A DNA stretch of 42,961 bases from a virus, in the IMG/VR virus record IMGVR_UViG_3300042549_003898, positions 1 through 42,961 of that record. One strand, written 5' to 3'. Under the pieces are notes generated by a model. That model did not search any database. It was given only the letters and a program-made list of their open reading frames with translations, and was not told the origin of the DNA. Below, one piece after another: positions 121 to 42,961 of the stretch (position 1 is its first letter; the number at the start of each line of letters is the position of its first letter). The translations under genes and the position numbers were made by a program.

Positions 121-150
121 CAAAAAAAGGGCGCTAAATGCGCCCTTGAT
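121..150 (-). terminator. Rho-independent terminator of the primase operon
   Basis: On the minus strand an 8-bp stem (127-134 with 140-147, five-base loop) is followed by seven T residues (bases 122-128 on plus). It lies just beyond the stop codon of the primase-helicase gene and seals that transcript before the origin-like region. Confidence 0.85.
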
Positions 151-164
151 ATAGTTGGTTGTGG

Positions 165-2408
165 TTATTTGGTTAGCCGATATTTTTTAACCTCTTTCTT
201 GTTTGTTGGGTTGGTTGTTATCATTTCCTCAACCGCCCCAGCTTGCACCATCGCTGAAAGTATCTGCTCAACCTGTTCCCGCTTGTGTGGCCTGCAGCGG
301 TTAACTAAAACGCCCATTGTTTCGGCATGGTCAACGCTGATAAGGTTTTGTATCTTGGCGGCAATGCTGTTACCTGGATCTTCTTTTTCAGCCATGTTTG
401 AGAATGCCAGTTTCATTTTGCGTTCAATATCAGCCTTGGCTAATGCGTAAGCCCATCGGACGTGCTCAACCGTTCTGACGCGCTCTGGAATGGCTAGAAT
501 CAAACTAATCTTTGCGGCAAGCTCATAGCCGCGTCTTGGAATTGCTTCAAGCCCTGTGGTTCCTCGCGCATCCTCTGCCATCTTCCAGAAAGCATGGTAA
601 ACATCATCAAGGGCGTTCAATGCCTCATCTGTGCTTGTGATGCGAGTTTTGTCTCCATAGTATTCAACTCGGTCTGGTTTTTCTGTGCTACCTGGTGAAT
701 ACAGATTCGCAAGCGTTGCCTGTATGCCAATAGGTAATGGCTGGCGCTTGAACTTTTCTTTTCTCTTTGGGTTGCTGTCTTGATCTTCAAATATCAGCGC
801 CCGACTAATAAAGCCGTTTGTGGCCTGCTCAAAATCCACTAGGTCGTTAAAGGTTACTGGAGTAGTCCATCCTATGATTGAAAGAAATGGGCGCTCCAAG
901 CCGCTGTCTATATTGTCCAAAGCATGTTTAATTTGCTCTGATCGTCTTAGCTGCTTTCCGCCTTTATCGCGTCCTTCATCAATCATTTTCATAACTGCTG
1001 CAAGTTCTGACTGTAGCTCCTTTCTCAGATCGTCTTTAACGTCACCAGATACGAGCATGAAACCGTTTGCTTTGCTGTAGGCTGACATTACCAAGCCTAT
1101 GACGCCCTCAAGATATGCAGCGCCACCGCGAGCAGTGGCAGACTTTATTTTTCTGAGAACCAAACCCAGTTCATCGATTGCATAATAGGCGGCTTGGTGC
1201 CTGACTAAGTTTCTGATAATTTCCTGCTCTGACTTGATGCCGCCATGGACAGCGCCAGAAACACCAGCAGCGCGCAAGCACTCTGCAAACGCTTGCTGAA
1301 TGGCTTCCTTACCAGTGGACGAGCTGGCAACACAGAAAGAAAATAGGTTTGTGCTAAATCCGTCTTTATCGTCTGTATTTCTAAGTCCAGCAATACAGCC
1401 AACAGCAGACAATGCAGCAGCAACTGCCATTGATTCACGAGGATAAAGGCATTGGTTGTTGATCCATTGCGTTAGCTGGCCAACAAAGCCAGGTGGTCGC
1501 TTTAAGTCTATACCGCTAATGTCTAGCGGGTTTGATTCATCATCAAAATTTGATTCATCAGGAGTGAAAGTTACAGACTCCACATATCCGTTATCTTCTG
1601 CAAAATGCTTTAGAGTTCCGAAAGTAACCGGATTTGACGACTTACCAAAGCTATGCCAGTGCCTTTCTAATTGGTGGATACCTGGATACTTGCTGCCGTT
1701 TTTGCTCCAATCGTTCCAGACGTCGAATCCGTCACCGTTTAAGGTTTGGTGGATAGCCATACCGCATGTGATCCACATATCATAACCACAGTCTGGGCTG
1801 ACAAACGAAAGGATGGTATTAACGTCAGCTATAGTTACATCCATGTAAGAGCCTGAAACGCTTGCTCTATACGTGTCTGGGCGTTTTAGCAGGTCAATCA
1901 ATACTTGAGGCGCTTCTTTTACATCATCTGGAGAGCCTTTTTTTACTTCATAATAACTGCCTGACGCATGCAAGCTTCCTGAGCCAACTACAAAGCCGCT
2001 TGATTTAAAATCAATGCCAGGATATTGGCTCAACTTTGAAACAATCGATACACCTTCAGGGGCTTTGAAGTAGATATGCAAACCGCCGCCGCCAGTTTTT
2101 ACTACAAAGCCGCTATCAGCCTCATAGTCATAAGCCATGGCTTTATAAGACTCAAAACCTCCATTGCGTGGGTCAATGTCGATAATAATATAACCGGACA
2201 CCAAGACCCCAAAGCCAGTGCTGAAGTTACCCATCGCTTCCATAACATCAAGCTGATCTTCAGACCATTCTGGCGTGTACTGCCAATTGCTGGCACATGG
2301 CTTTTTATACTTCTGCTCTGGTGGTAACTCGCTTCCGTCATGGTCGGTTGCACCGAGCAGGCCGAACACCCTAAACCCAGCGTCGATGTAATCGTATTGG
2401 TTAGCCAT
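165..2408 (-). CDS. Prim-Pol / DUF3987 primase-helicase
   Basis: This is probably the phage replication primase fused to a helicase-like ATPase, 747 aa. Residues about 5-175 look like a bifunctional primase/polymerase (Prim-Pol) domain: the metal-binding IDID at 76-79, GGGGLHIYF around 106-114 and a GSG-loop with His at 142-147. Residues about 195-275 resemble a primase C-terminal (PriCT-2) domain. From about 300 a DUF3987-type ATPase follows, with a P-loop-like ASSSTGKE at 361-368 and an acidic Walker B YAIDELG at 409-415. The start ATG overlaps the stop of the upstream HTH gene by 8 bases, so the two are probably translationally coupled. A terminator follows, then the candidate origin. No other replicative polymerase is seen, so elongation probably relies on the host. 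Confidence 0.85.
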   Translation of the reverse strand: MANQYDYIDAGFRVFGLLGATDHDGSELPPEQKYKKPCASNWQYTPEWSEDQLDVMEAMGNFSTGFGVLVSGYIIIDIDPRNGGFESYKAMAYDYEADSGFVVKTGGGGLHIYFKAPEGVSIVSKLSQYPGIDFKSSGFVVGSGSLHASGSYYEVKKGSPDDVKEAPQVLIDLLKRPDTYRASVSGSYMDVTIADVNTILSFVSPDCGYDMWITCGMAIHQTLNGDGFDVWNDWSKNGSKYPGIHQLERHWHSFGKSSNPVTFGTLKHFAEDNGYVESVTFTPDESNFDDESNPLDISGIDLKRPPGFVGQLTQWINNQCLYPRESMAVAAALSAVGCIAGLRNTDDKDGFSTNLFSFCVASSSTGKEAIQQAFAECLRAAGVSGAVHGGIKSEQEIIRNLVRHQAAYYAIDELGLVLRKIKSATARGGAAYLEGVIGLVMSAYSKANGFMLVSGDVKDDLRKELQSELAAVMKMIDEGRDKGGKQLRRSEQIKHALDNIDSGLERPFLSIIGWTTPVTFNDLVDFEQATNGFISRALIFEDQDSNPKRKEKFKRQPLPIGIQATLANLYSPGSTEKPDRVEYYGDKTRITSTDEALNALDDVYHAFWKMAEDARGTTGLEAIPRRGYELAAKISLILAIPERVRTVEHVRWAYALAKADIERKMKLAFSNMAEKEDPGNSIAAKIQNLISVDHAETMGVLVNRCRPHKREQVEQILSAMVQAGAVEEMITTNPTNKKEVKKYRLTK

Positions 2409-2580
2409 TTGCTTTCCCTTCTAAATAATCGCTGATTGTTTTTATCGTTGAGTAAGATGGAGCTTTTGCTTTTCCGTTTCTGATGTTTGAAAGCGTCTGC
2501 CTACTTAGGCCAGTTCTGTCAGCGACAACCTCCAGATTTCTATCCTTTAACATCTCTTTTATTTGTTCAATGGTTAGCAT
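2401..2580 (-). CDS. small HTH (Cro/XRE-type) DNA-binding protein
   Basis: 59 aa. The N-terminal half reads as a Cro/XRE helix-turn-helix: VVADRTGLSRQTLSNIRNG (residues 18-36) has the spacing of helix 2, turn and recognition helix 3. It sits first in the minus-strand operon with the primase and overlaps the primase start. Its own upstream region (2594-2617) has three tandem 8-bp repeats, a plausible operator for this protein. It may repress both its own operon and the divergent recombination operon. Assigning it as the repressor is inference; a Cro-like or replication-control role is equally possible. Without an integrase, lysogeny is not indicated. Confidence 0.8.
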   Translation of the reverse strand: MLTIEQIKEMLKDRNLEVVADRTGLSRQTLSNIRNGKAKAPSYSTIKTISDYLEGKANG

Positions 2581-2593
2581 TTTCTAAAACCTC

Positions 2594-2617
2594 GACTTAG
2601 TGAGTTAGTGACTTAGT
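2594..2617. promoter_or_regulatory. three tandem 8-bp operator repeats
   Basis: GACTTAGT, GAGTTAGT and GACTTAGT follow one another with an exact 8-bp period, 14 bases upstream of the HTH gene start. They lie downstream of its likely promoter (-10-like TATATA about 2624-2629 on minus). The unit matches the iterons at the window ends (GACTTAGC in reverse complement), so one protein may bind both places. Confidence 0.7.
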
Positions 2618-2671
2618 GAGTACACTATATACGAATGCGAGTACGGCCGTAAACAAATTCGTAAAAAAATA

Positions 2672-7515: not shown

Positions 7516-8067
7516 ATGGAAATAGATTGGAGTAAGGCGCCAGCGTCTGCGGAGTTTTATGCTTGTGGTAATTTTTACTGGCATGGCAGTAATGGGTTAA
7601 TTGTGTTCATAACCTCAGCTATTGCTGGCAGCGGAGTCTATGAAAAATCAATGTACAGCAAAGAAGAGCTTATGCAGAAAGGCGACTACACCGAGCGCCC
7701 AAAAGAATGGCCAGCCGAGCAGCGAATAGATATCATTGCGACTAATGGCGGAGATGGCGAGCATTACAGCCAGCCACCAAAAACATCCGCAGAATACCTC
7801 TCTGAATGCCTCAGAGTGCAAACCGATCGCGGCAAGCAATACGATGCTAGCGGTACAGGTGAAAGGAGCTTTGCAGCGGCGGCGGCTGCGTTTAATGCGG
7901 CAACTGGCAAATCGTTAACTGGCTCTGATGTTTGCTTGCTGCTGTCGATGGTGAAGCTTGTGAGGCAATACAGCTCACCGGATAGATTGCACCAGGATAG
8001 CTTGCTTGATGGTGTTAGTTATATGAGCTTGTGGGCGGAGGAGTTGACCAAGGAGTTATGCGAATGA
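7516..8067 (+). CDS. DUF6378-domain protein (MazG-like fold suspected)
   Basis: 183 aa. Residues 1-85 are unfamiliar. The C-terminal half (about 88-183) matches the feel of phage DUF6378 proteins: a helix with RGKQYD, then F..AAAAFNAATGKSLTGSDVCLLLSMVKLVRQ and a C-terminal WAEEL. It may bind or hydrolyse nucleotides, but no catalytic residue set can be assigned by eye. AAGGAG lies upstream of its ATG. It overlaps the methyltransferase start by four bases. Confidence 0.65.
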   Translation: MEIDWSKAPASAEFYACGNFYWHGSNGLIVFITSAIAGSGVYEKSMYSKEELMQKGDYTERPKEWPAEQRIDIIATNGGDGEHYSQPPKTSAEYLSECLRVQTDRGKQYDASGTGERSFAAAAAAFNAATGKSLTGSDVCLLLSMVKLVRQYSSPDRLHQDSLLDGVSYMSLWAEELTKELCE

Positions 8068-8732
8068 AGGATATAAAAACAGAAAGCCTATGGCTAATGA
8101 ATGGCGATTGCTTGGAGCGAATGAAAGAGATTCCGGACGGTTCAGTCGATATGATTTTAACAGACCCGCCTTATGGTATGGATTTAACGCCACAGCGAAA
8201 GTCTGGGAAATTTCATGGGGTGAAAATAAAAAACGACGAGACGCTATCGTGGTCTGATGATTTTTTTCAAGAGTGCCTTAGAGTTCTCCCAAAAAATTCA
8301 GCAGCTTTTATTTTCTGCTCGCATCATTGCGTCTCTGAGTTTATAAGCTCTGCAAAATTGGCTGGATTTGAGGTTAAAAACCTTCTTGTATGGAACAAGG
8401 GGCATTTTGGCATGGGTGGGAATTGGCGTCCTGTTCATGAGCTAATATTGCTTTTAACCAAAGGTAGATTCGTTACCAAATCGAACAGCCTAAAAACAAT
8501 ACTTGATTTTAAAAAAGTTCATCATAGCAAAGCTGTTCATCCAACAGAAAAGCCAATTGACTTATTGCGCCATCTCATTGAGCAAGCCGATTATGAGCCG
8601 CAGAAAATACTTGACCCATTTATGGGAAGCGGCACTACAGGGGTCGCAGCCAAAAACCTAAACCGCAAGTTCATCGGCATTGAGTTGGATGATGGTTATT
8701 TTGAGATTGCTAAAGGGCGCATTCTGCCATGA
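8064..8732 (+). CDS. beta-class DNA N6-adenine methyltransferase
   Basis: 222 aa. Catalytic motif IV TDPPYG (33-38) precedes the AdoMet-binding motif I DPFMGSGTTG (184-193), the order of beta-class amino-methyltransferases; DPPY favours N6-adenine. It probably methylates phage DNA to evade host restriction; the specificity cannot be read. No cognate endonuclease gene is adjacent. The ATG at 8064 was preferred because AAGGAG ends eight bases before it; earlier in-frame ATGs (8031, 8058) are too far from or too close to a ribosome-binding site. Confidence 0.9.
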   Translation: MKDIKTESLWLMNGDCLERMKEIPDGSVDMILTDPPYGMDLTPQRKSGKFHGVKIKNDETLSWSDDFFQECLRVLPKNSAAFIFCSHHCVSEFISSAKLAGFEVKNLLVWNKGHFGMGGNWRPVHELILLLTKGRFVTKSNSLKTILDFKKVHHSKAVHPTEKPIDLLRHLIEQADYEPQKILDPFMGSGTTGVAAKNLNRKFIGIELDDGYFEIAKGRILP

Positions 8733-40863: not shown

Positions 40864-41085
40864 TCATTCAGATAAAAATAATTTCTCAGTCAAGCTGATA
40901 ATCCTCTGCCTCTCACTAGGACTAGCCGCAATCAAATCTAGGCAAGCCATTTTAGTATGCGGGTCTTGCGCCTGTGTCATCATCCTTGCAGCCGTTTGGA
41001 TGATTGCCGCTTGCTGTGGGCGCTTGTCGGCGATTGCTAAGCGGCGTGCAAGCGCTATGTTTAGCGCTTCGGTGTTGGTTGTCAT
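40864..41085 (-). CDS. hypothetical protein, 73 aa
   Basis: Helical (TEALNIALARRLAIADKRPQ, CLDLIAASPSERQRIISL). Starts in an ATGA overlap with the methyltransferase-like gene. Last gene of the rightmost operon before the promoter gap. Confidence 0.6.
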   Translation of the reverse strand: MTTNTEALNIALARRLAIADKRPQQAAIIQTAARMMTQAQDPHTKMACLDLIAASPSERQRIISLTEKLFLSE

Positions 41086-41726
41086 TTATCCGCTCCGTAC
41101 ATCTCAAAAACAGCCCTTGCAAAACCACGAGGCGTTGCGCTTCTAAAGTTCGCCCTATCTGGACCAGGTGGCGCTTTATGAATCCTGTCATCAGGCGAGC
41201 CTAGCGACTTATTAATAAACGCAGGCGGCAACACAAAACCACCGCCCGACCATAAGCAGGTTTTTTTTGTGTAGTTATCATCCGTGCAGTATCCGGTGTA
41301 ATCGCAAGGATTGAATGACCATTGCGGCTTGCTAAATATTGAGCTGAATACGCTTACCGGATTTTCAAAGAACCAAGGGCAACCGCAAAGCTCACCAATA
41401 GTTCGACATTGTTCAGCAACCAGCGCTGCTTTAGCCTGGAAAAACTTGTCTTGCTCTGCCTTGGCTGCAAACCATCGTGACCCACTCACCGCCACGTCAG
41501 TGCATGGCGGGAAACCAGCAACAAACACAACTTTTTCAGTTCGCATAATTTCGCCAATGCGCGGCATCGCATCAAGCATTGTTTTATTAATCCGCTCAAC
41601 CTTGCCGTCATCTGTGTGCGCCTGGTGCTGTGGGTCAACCATAACAACTCGATAGCCAGCATCAACCCAATCAGCGCCCATTGCATCGGTCAGGTTGCAT
41701 AGCAGCAATACGGTTCCTTTGCTCAT
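41082..41726 (-). CDS. C5-cytosine methyltransferase-like protein
   Basis: 214 aa. Motif I-like GTVLLLCNLTDAMG (4-17), AGYRVVMVD, motif IV FPPCTDVAVSG with the catalytic-type Cys75, and a motif-VI-like FENP (120-123; ENV is usual). A late YTKKTCLWSGGGFVLPP completes a phage family annotated as DNA cytosine methylases. It lacks a clear target-recognition domain and motif VIII, so activity and specificity are unsure. Start 41726 chosen at an ATGA overlap. The second methyltransferase in the genome. Confidence 0.75.
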   Translation of the reverse strand: MSKGTVLLLCNLTDAMGADWVDAGYRVVMVDPQHQAHTDDGKVERINKTMLDAMPRIGEIMRTEKVVFVAGFPPCTDVAVSGSRWFAAKAEQDKFFQAKAALVAEQCRTIGELCGCPWFFENPVSVFSSIFSKPQWSFNPCDYTGYCTDDNYTKKTCLWSGGGFVLPPAFINKSLGSPDDRIHKAPPGPDRANFRSATPRGFARAVFEMYGADK

Positions 41727-42013
41727 TCCTGGCACCCTTGCAATCTCTGAGTAGCCAAAGACTCAGCATGCCTGGTCAGCCAATCATTCGCGTACTGGCG
41801 CAAGATAGCACCGCAATCGGCGCCTGTTTTAAACGCCTCAGAAATCGCTGTGGTGCATTTTTCATCGAAGCTGCTGTCTAGCTCTATTTCATCCAGATAG
41901 TCGCTTAGAATCAATCCTGCGCGTATTTGAGCTGCAAGAGCAGCTATCTTTGCGTCCTGCTCTGCTTTTTGCTCGGCTGCTAGGTCTGTTTGTTTCCAAT
42001 CATCGTAAGCCAT
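41723..42013 (-). CDS. hypothetical protein, 96 aa
   Basis: Charged helical N-terminus (AAEQKAEQDAKIAALAAQIR), then SFDEKCTTAISEAFKTGADCG and WLTRHAESLATQ. Phage accessory type, no known function. Its stop overlaps the methyltransferase-like start. Confidence 0.6.
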   Translation of the reverse strand: MAYDDWKQTDLAAEQKAEQDAKIAALAAQIRAGLILSDYLDEIELDSSFDEKCTTAISEAFKTGADCGAILRQYANDWLTRHAESLATQRLQGCQE

Positions 42014-42014
42014 A

Positions 42015-42173
42015 TTATGCCTCGTTCAATCTAAAATACCCTTTCGGGCAAATAAACAACTCACCATTCTTCCGCATACGCTGCGCTATCTCGCGTGAAT
42101 TTGGTCGCAAGTCGCTTAGCTTCACAAAGCCATTGCGGATGTCTTGTTTTAGTTTGTAGAGCAATCCGGTCAT
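42015..42173 (-). CDS. hypothetical protein, 52 aa
   Basis: ATG 42173 in an ATGA overlap with the HTH gene. MTGLLYKLKQDIRNGFV with LSDLRPNSREIAQRMRKNG resembles a small wHTH-like phage protein. An in-frame ATG at 42212 lies inside the HTH gene and is less likely. Confidence 0.55.
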   Translation of the reverse strand: MTGLLYKLKQDIRNGFVKLSDLRPNSREIAQRMRKNGELFICPKGYFRLNEA

Positions 42174-42373
42174 TTCTTTCTCCCAAATTCTTCCAAAAAG
42201 TTCATTAACCATTCAATACTGAAAAGCTCGCTTTGGTTCCCAGCTAACGACGTGATTCGCTGTCTGCTCACTCCAACTTTGTCTGCCGCCTGCTGATGGG
42301 TTAACCCCCTATCAATGATGAGCTGTTGTGCTTCTGCCATTAGGTCTTGTTTTAGCTGTTGGGCTTTGTTCAT
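42170..42373 (-). CDS. HTH (XRE-like) regulator, 67 aa
   Basis: DRGLTHQQAADKVGVSRQRITSLAGN (residues about 21-46) is a clear helix-turn-helix, and FSIEWLMNFLEEFGRKK matches the C-terminal helix of HigA-like/XRE domains. Start 42373 chosen at the ATGA overlap. As the second gene behind the palindromic promoter (42596-42623) it is a good candidate for the protein that binds that palindrome; that is inference. No toxin partner is apparent. Confidence 0.75.
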   Translation of the reverse strand: MNKAQQLKQDLMAEAQQLIIDRGLTHQQAADKVGVSRQRITSLAGNQSELFSIEWLMNFLEEFGRKK

Positions 42374-42549
42374 TGTTGCTCCGGTGCTGGTATTTGATTT
42401 GCTGTAAAGTCGGTTAATTTTGCATCTCGCCATTTTAACCTGCTCATTCCGCCATGCGGCATGTCTTCGTAATAGCTGACTTCAACTTGCAGAATTAATT
42501 TACCAAACAAGCTAGTTCTGTACCTTGTCTTTCCTGTTGCTTTTTCCAT
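42370..42549 (-). CDS. hypothetical protein, 59 aa
   Basis: AAGGAG lies seven bases before the ATG. The stop overlaps the HTH gene start. The basic N-terminus (KATGKTRYRTS) is followed by beta strands (LFGKLILQVEVSYY). No family recognised. First gene of the rightmost minus-strand operon. Confidence 0.65.
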   Translation of the reverse strand: MEKATGKTRYRTSLFGKLILQVEVSYYEDMPHGGMSRLKWRDAKLTDFTANQIPAPEQQ

Positions 42550-42623: not shown

Positions 42624-42780
42624 TAGTTTTTGTGCATGAATTTGCGACTTAGCGAGATAGTGGGAAATAGCAAAACAAAACTAAGTACTTTTTCCTTGTA
42701 AATCAATGAATTAGAGAGATAGATATATATCTTTATATTTATATTTATAAATACATAAAAATAACGTCTATATCTAGATT

Positions 42781-42796
42781 ACTAAGTAACTAAGAC
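42781..42796. repeat. degenerate 8-bp iteron pair
   Basis: ACTAAGTA (42781-42788) and ACTAAGAC (42789-42796) follow the 8-bp phase and share CTAAG with the triple repeat 41 bases further on. They sit between the AT-rich stretch and the perfect repeats. Confidence 0.5.
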
Positions 42797-42834
42797 GATA
42801 TAAGAAACTCCATTAATCTATCTGTTTATCTACC

Positions 42835-42961
42835 TAGCTAAGTCGCTAAGTCGCTAAGTCGCTCATTTTCTATTTATAAATCAATGAGTTGCGAAATAGT
42901 GACGCATTAACTAACTCGTTAAGTCATTGATTTATAAAGAAACTGTTTTTAGCGCAAAAAA
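42835..42961. repeat. 127-bp terminal direct repeat, right copy
   Basis: Identical to bases 1-127. See the left copy: the two ends overlap, so the genome should be read as circular with base 42834 followed by base 1. Confidence 0.95.

Follow-up and report, generated by a model that had tools for sequence, protein, structure and literature searches.

Which sequence starts the replication of a phage, and which of its proteins reads that sequence? The window analysed here, a stretch of 42,961 nucleotides, raises both questions, as short tandem repeats with an 8-bp period lie behind a primase gene and again in front of the operon that contains it. The window comes from a tailed phage, and the repeats probably mark the start point of DNA replication. 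The initial annotation described the repeats behind the primase gene as an iteron-type candidate origin and proposed that one protein, perhaps the 59-aa HTH product of the operon, binds both arrays.

Repeat arrays at two loci of the window

The first 127 bases (1-127) are an exact copy of 42835-42961. The window is a circular phage contig, probably with a genome that is circular or circularly permuted; the overlap length fits an assembly with k=127 and is probably a k-mer overlap of the assembly, and the unit genome after its removal is 42,834 bp. Because of this terminal overlap, the repeats at 3-26, annotated as identical to those at 42837-42860, are the same array and not another one. The candidate origin region spans the contig joint, from 42640 to about 127. 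In the sense of the primase gene, it is located 3' of the stop codon and of a terminator-like hairpin standing between gene and origin, and before a leftward operon. Its parts are as follows.

42623-42596: extended -10 promoter-like site of the leftward operon
42646-42661, minus strand: distal iteron pair GACTTAGC/GAGATAGT in inverted orientation, beyond the AT-rich centre
42732-42753: AT-only stretch, located where the 100-bp windows of the profiled region are richest in AT (19-24% GC)
42781-42796, plus strand: degenerate iteron pair ACTAAGTA/ACTAAGAC
42837-42860, plus strand: core iteron array, GCTAAGTC x3 with an exact 8-bp period (the same as 3-26 through the terminal overlap)
39-104: inverted repeat, arms 39-56 and 87-104, 30 nt apart
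76-91 (the same as 42910-42925), plus strand: degenerate iteron pair ACTAACTC/GTTAAGTC, which overlaps the inverted repeat in its 3' part
121-147, minus strand: terminator-like hairpin with a T run, read from sequence (hairpin arms 127-134 and 140-147)

Clustered short repeats of fixed spacing thus adjoin the proposed initiator gene, and AT-rich DNA lies between or beside them, both being characters of an iteron-type origin. The AT-only stretch is a candidate unwinding element, and the inverted repeat is possibly a stem-loop of the origin.

The second locus is the promoter of the HTH/primase operon, where the array adjoins the -10 on its downstream side.

165-2408, minus strand: 747-aa PrimPol + PriCT_2 + DUF3987 primase-helicase (phrog_3022)
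168-377, minus strand: primase residues 678-747, predicted winged helix
168-239, minus strand: wing, primase residues 724-747
2401-2580, minus strand: 59-aa Cro/C1-type HTH gene (phrog_18104)
2594-2617, minus strand: promoter array GACTTAGT/GAGTTAGT/GACTTAGT, 8-bp period, in the orientation opposite to the origin array
2624-2653, minus strand: sigma-70-like promoter TTTACG-18-TATAGT of the HTH/primase operon, a consensus match only

The origin and promoter arrays have a common core in opposite orientations. All the annotated repeat units (42837-42860, 76-91, 42781-42796, 42646-42661 and 2594-2617) and the AT-only stretch were recovered in place, with two corrections of detail: the inverted repeat is present but measures 18 bp at 94% complementarity instead of 15 bp, and the three promoter copies do keep the 8-bp period, but only two of them are identical and the other carries a mismatch.

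Period-8 tandems scoring at least 14/16 occur at two places only in the window, 3' of the primase gene and in the HTH/primase promoter, and one of the two sites scores 16/16. Among 200 dinucleotide shuffles, 4 had even one site of at least 14/16 and none had a 16/16 site. The matches cluster as well: 6 distinct positions carry 8-bp-phased pairs of CTAAGTC with at most one mismatch (shuffle mean 0.08), each of them within one of the two loci and none elsewhere. Since lone CTAAGTC 7-mers are also present elsewhere (at 1381 and 12000), the signal is the clustering and the phase, not the word. The cumulative GC skew, suggested as a check near 42640-110, has its minimum at about 2.5-3 kb, at the divergent promoters; it tracks gene direction and therefore speaks neither for nor against the origin.

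Neither an exact search for GCTAAGTC x3 among viral contigs nor a megablast comparison of the window with phage records gave a match, and no close DNA relative was found; within these two collections, the unit is private to this phage. The window also holds two DNA methyltransferase genes, at 8031-8732 (plus strand) and 41082-41735 (minus strand), assigned to phrog_67 and phrog_757.

Arrays and promoters among the primase relatives

Relatives of the primase are plentiful, and 77 loci (window included) were left after near-duplicate removal. Isolated relatives include Pseudoalteromonas phage H103 and Pseudomonas phage Torfinnsbu. An excess at periods 4, 8 and 9-12 in the autocorrelation over all loci was too broad to serve by itself, and tandem scans for exact and near-exact repeats, with controls, were run instead. 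Among the 72 representatives with enough downstream sequence, it turned out that 18 carry a period-8 array in the region up to 420 nt 3' of the primase; the counts for other periods were 0-6, and for period 8 the coding control gave 0. The unit varies among phages, such as GCTAAGTC in the window, ACAAAGCA in Torfinnsbu, and GTATAAGT, ATAGCAAG and others elsewhere. Many loci have inverted clusters on either side of AT-rich DNA, at about 40-140 and 270-350 nt past the stop codon, an arrangement that supports the annotated candidate origin. From these comparisons, the region just 3' of the primase is well supported as an iteron-type candidate origin, in which the position and often the period are kept and the unit is changed. 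The words CTAT and ACTA are enriched over shuffles in the 3' regions of the relatives; a common CTA-type core across the units is suggested, as an observation and not a proven motif. As a separate feature, a Fur-box-like palindrome around GAATGATTATCATT is located 251-284 nt after the primase stop at 9 of the 77 loci (L005, L006, L030, L035, L044, L057, L070, L072 and L083).

At the promoter side, only the window and Torfinnsbu have a period-8 array among the representatives. Torfinnsbu contains ACAAAGCA x3 at the corresponding promoter place, with no HTH gene in the slot, and the same unit again downstream of its primase. Its relatives L205 and L206, which are also HTH-less, have phased primase-promoter repeats that weakly resemble their own origin repeats (p 0.02-0.1), and the L206 promoter also matches the origin of the window, two points that weigh against the sharing. 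The promoter array is rare (the window and the Torfinnsbu group) and suggests autoregulation by the initiator as the simplest reading. The proposal of one protein for both arrays is plausible in this light, as matching promoter and origin repeats are found clearly in Torfinnsbu and weakly in L205 and L206.

The protein that follows the iterons

The first candidate is the 59-aa HTH protein, which by binding both arrays would combine repression of the operon with replication control. Its gene adjoins the promoter array, and operator binding is common among proteins of this kind. However, the iterons dissociate from the HTH among the relatives. Depending on the relative, the slot before the primase contains no HTH gene or one of at least three unrelated types, and Torfinnsbu has both arrays without an HTH gene there. 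L076 and L089 have identical HTHs and different iterons, and the iterons also differ between L070 and L083, whose HTHs are 2 differences apart; conversely, L089 and L086 share their iterons although their HTHs differ, and in L078 and L082 the HTHs are even unrelated while the iterons agree. This part of the annotated proposal therefore had to be given up: it is highly improbable that the HTH protein binds both arrays, and this protein, not likely an iteron reader, is probably a regulator of the HTH/primase operon. Between otherwise similar phages (L016-L096), the small HTH gene was seen to be swapped for unrelated HTH types.

It is the C-terminus of the primase that changes together with the iterons. 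For these comparisons, repeated 6-mers served to score how similar the iterons are, and independent pairs were hand-picked. L076 and L089, with different iterons, differ at 3/673 primase residues outside the C-terminus and 9/73 inside, and L089 and L086, with the same iterons, at 41/673 outside and 1/73 inside. Over four switched-iteron clades, 38/287 differences fall in residues 675-747 versus 49/2717 elsewhere (OR 8.3, p 1.7e-17), and over 11 same-iteron pairs the counts are 21/796 versus 304/7443 (OR 0.64). For instance, L194 and L195 share their iterons, with 75/684 residues differing in the N-part and 0/74 in the C-part. The C-terminal switch positions are mostly within the wing.

Pfam assigned Prim-Pol (AEP) and PriCT_2 to the primase and no TOPRIM-type primase domain, and only DUF3987 to its helicase part, with no DUF927 or D5_N/Primase_Cterm. 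AlphaFold2 on the C-terminal fragment predicted a confident winged helix at 678-747 (mean pLDDT 93). The fold matches are winged-helix DNA-binding proteins of a generic kind, and we therefore name no particular relative, P4 alpha included, for the C-terminus; searching the PDB by sequence with the primase yielded no relative either. From the co-change, we infer iteron binding by the C-terminal winged helix. The comparisons suggest that the repeats are read by this domain and not by the 59-aa HTH, it being the better candidate of the two, and that wing and iteron are a lock-and-key pair changing together from phage to phage.

The same association could arise if C-terminus and origin changed together only as an adjacent recombining block, the origin repeats being read by something else. 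The two are only the terminator of about 50 nt apart, and because of this adjacency co-transfer by recombination contributes to the association. In clade A, however, the terminator and the AT-rich centre stay homologous and alignable while the iterons on both arms change together, so block linkage alone is disfavoured; besides, four clades have their differences concentrated in the winged helix, and origin switches lacking a C-terminal switch were seen only at loci with an extra winged-helix ORF. We therefore regard the block as an unlikely explanation.

These extra ORFs, which lie between primase and origin and end in a primase-type winged helix, were found in L047, L077/L080, L084/L165, L205 and L206 (in the last two, the winged helix was recognised by eye). 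In L077, L080, L084, L165, L205 and L206 they are 143-180 aa long and directly 3' of the primase gene; their N-termini are unlike each other between groups, with no family match for those searched. Genuine exceptions to the wing/iteron pairing are L077/L080 and L165, in which a primase wing of the ATAGT type goes with a CCAATGTAGG origin; unlike most concordant cases, they contain such a free ORF; L084 has one too, yet is concordant. In L047 (7343-7918, the same contig as L187), the ORF encodes 191 aa with the primase-type winged helix at the C-terminus and a weak T5orf172/GIY-YIG match at the N-terminus (E 9e-4 and 0.025), which makes it a candidate origin-directed nuclease like ICP1 Odn. A search for more copies of this fusion returned the same contig only. 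L041/L047 was considered as a further exception (same C-terminus, different 'origin') and rejected, as the difference is the extra ORF and the same ACATGTCAG-type repeats follow past it.

Finally, the arrays might be bound by another phage or host DNA-binding protein and mark co-regulated promoters instead of an origin. The region 42640-127 also functions as promoter region for the leftward operon, which has the extended -10-like site listed above, and this operon contains an HTH_37-type gene, whose product (42170-42433) would be an example of such a protein; Torfinnsbu has an 'HTH DNA binding protein' gene similarly placed. Against this, the first post-origin gene in clade A (compared by eye) is common to phages with different iterons and different among phages with the same iterons, an initiator gene followed by inverted arrays that flank AT-rich DNA is a typical origin arrangement, and the iterons track the primase C-terminus. 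We give this explanation a low probability.

Proposed initiation mechanism and known systems

The reading that we consider likely is that 42640-127 is the origin, that the upstream PrimPol-helicase binds its CTAAGTC-type iterons by the C-terminal winged helix, and that the promoter array is autoregulatory. The 747-aa protein, proposed from sequence as the initiator, would assemble on the inverted clusters, open the AT-rich centre and prime replication. Within the winged helix, the conserved part may recognise the common CTA-like core, and the variable wing the changeable remainder of the unit. Through the second array, downstream of the HTH/primase -10, the initiator would repress its own operon; initiator self-repression is known from other iteron replicons.

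This assigns a candidate origin and initiator to the widespread phage primase family PrimPol-PriCT_2-DUF3987, for which we found no described origin in the literature except the BIP-1 stem-loop proposal. The natural swap pairs, near-identical save for a few wing residues and the iterons, could allow the recognition code of a replication initiator to be read directly. More tentatively, and with considerable doubt, the family might keep its origin layout and initiator and alter the identity of its origins by way of the wing and of the variable portion of the CTA-type iteron, the turnover being driven by free winged-helix genes next to the origin, among them a nuclease fusion that would cut rival origins.

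A precedent is given by SaPI Rep and SCC Cch2, whose C-terminal domain binds iterons located 3' of the gene that encodes each protein, and SaPI5 Rep also has a primase domain (PMC7581432). Like these self-loading initiator helicases (SaPI Rep and SCCmec Cch2), the window has a candidate short-iteron origin directly downstream of the proposed initiator gene (PMC7581432). Unlike these proteins of staphylococcal islands with DUF927 or D5/Primase_Cterm, the phage protein combines PrimPol, PriCT_2 and DUF3987.

In pRN1, an origin 3' of the PrimPol gene has been shown and is essential, and for the Bordetella phage BIP-1/BPP-1 an origin at the same 3' position was proposed by the authors, as a stem-loop for BIP-1 (PMC4234260). 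The window resembles them in its operon of small repressor and PrimPol-helicase, its predicted C-terminal winged helix and its candidate origin at the 3' side, and BIP-1 also shares PriCT_2 with the window primase (PMC4234260). The pRN1 and BIP-1 origins were described as a large stem-loop, with no iterons at the site (PMC4234260). In the window, the iterons are the main element and the inverted repeat is smaller: there is one, of 18 bp with a 30-nt loop.

Phage P4 has two repeat loci, ori and crr. P4 alpha is a primase-helicase whose C-terminal winged helix binds origin repeats (PMC4234260). The window likewise has a primase-helicase with a predicted C-terminal winged helix and two repeat loci, but the second locus is at a promoter, and since the primase domain is PrimPol rather than TOPRIM, the protein is not of the P4 alpha type.

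In V. cholerae PLE, the DNA-binding domain of the initiator RepA and the origin co-vary as a module, and ICP1 Odn, an initiator-like DNA-binding domain fused to a T5orf172 nuclease, may drive PLE origin swaps (PMC8263062). The L047 protein, encoded next to the origin, joins a T5orf172/GIY-YIG-like part to a winged helix of the primase type and in this is similar to Odn (PMC8263062). The domain is RepA_N in PLE/Odn and a primase winged helix here, and the putative L047 fusion, outside the window, has the reverse domain order. The presence of such a nuclease fusion next to one origin suggests a conflict between phages that is fought over replication origins, as in ICP1/PLE.
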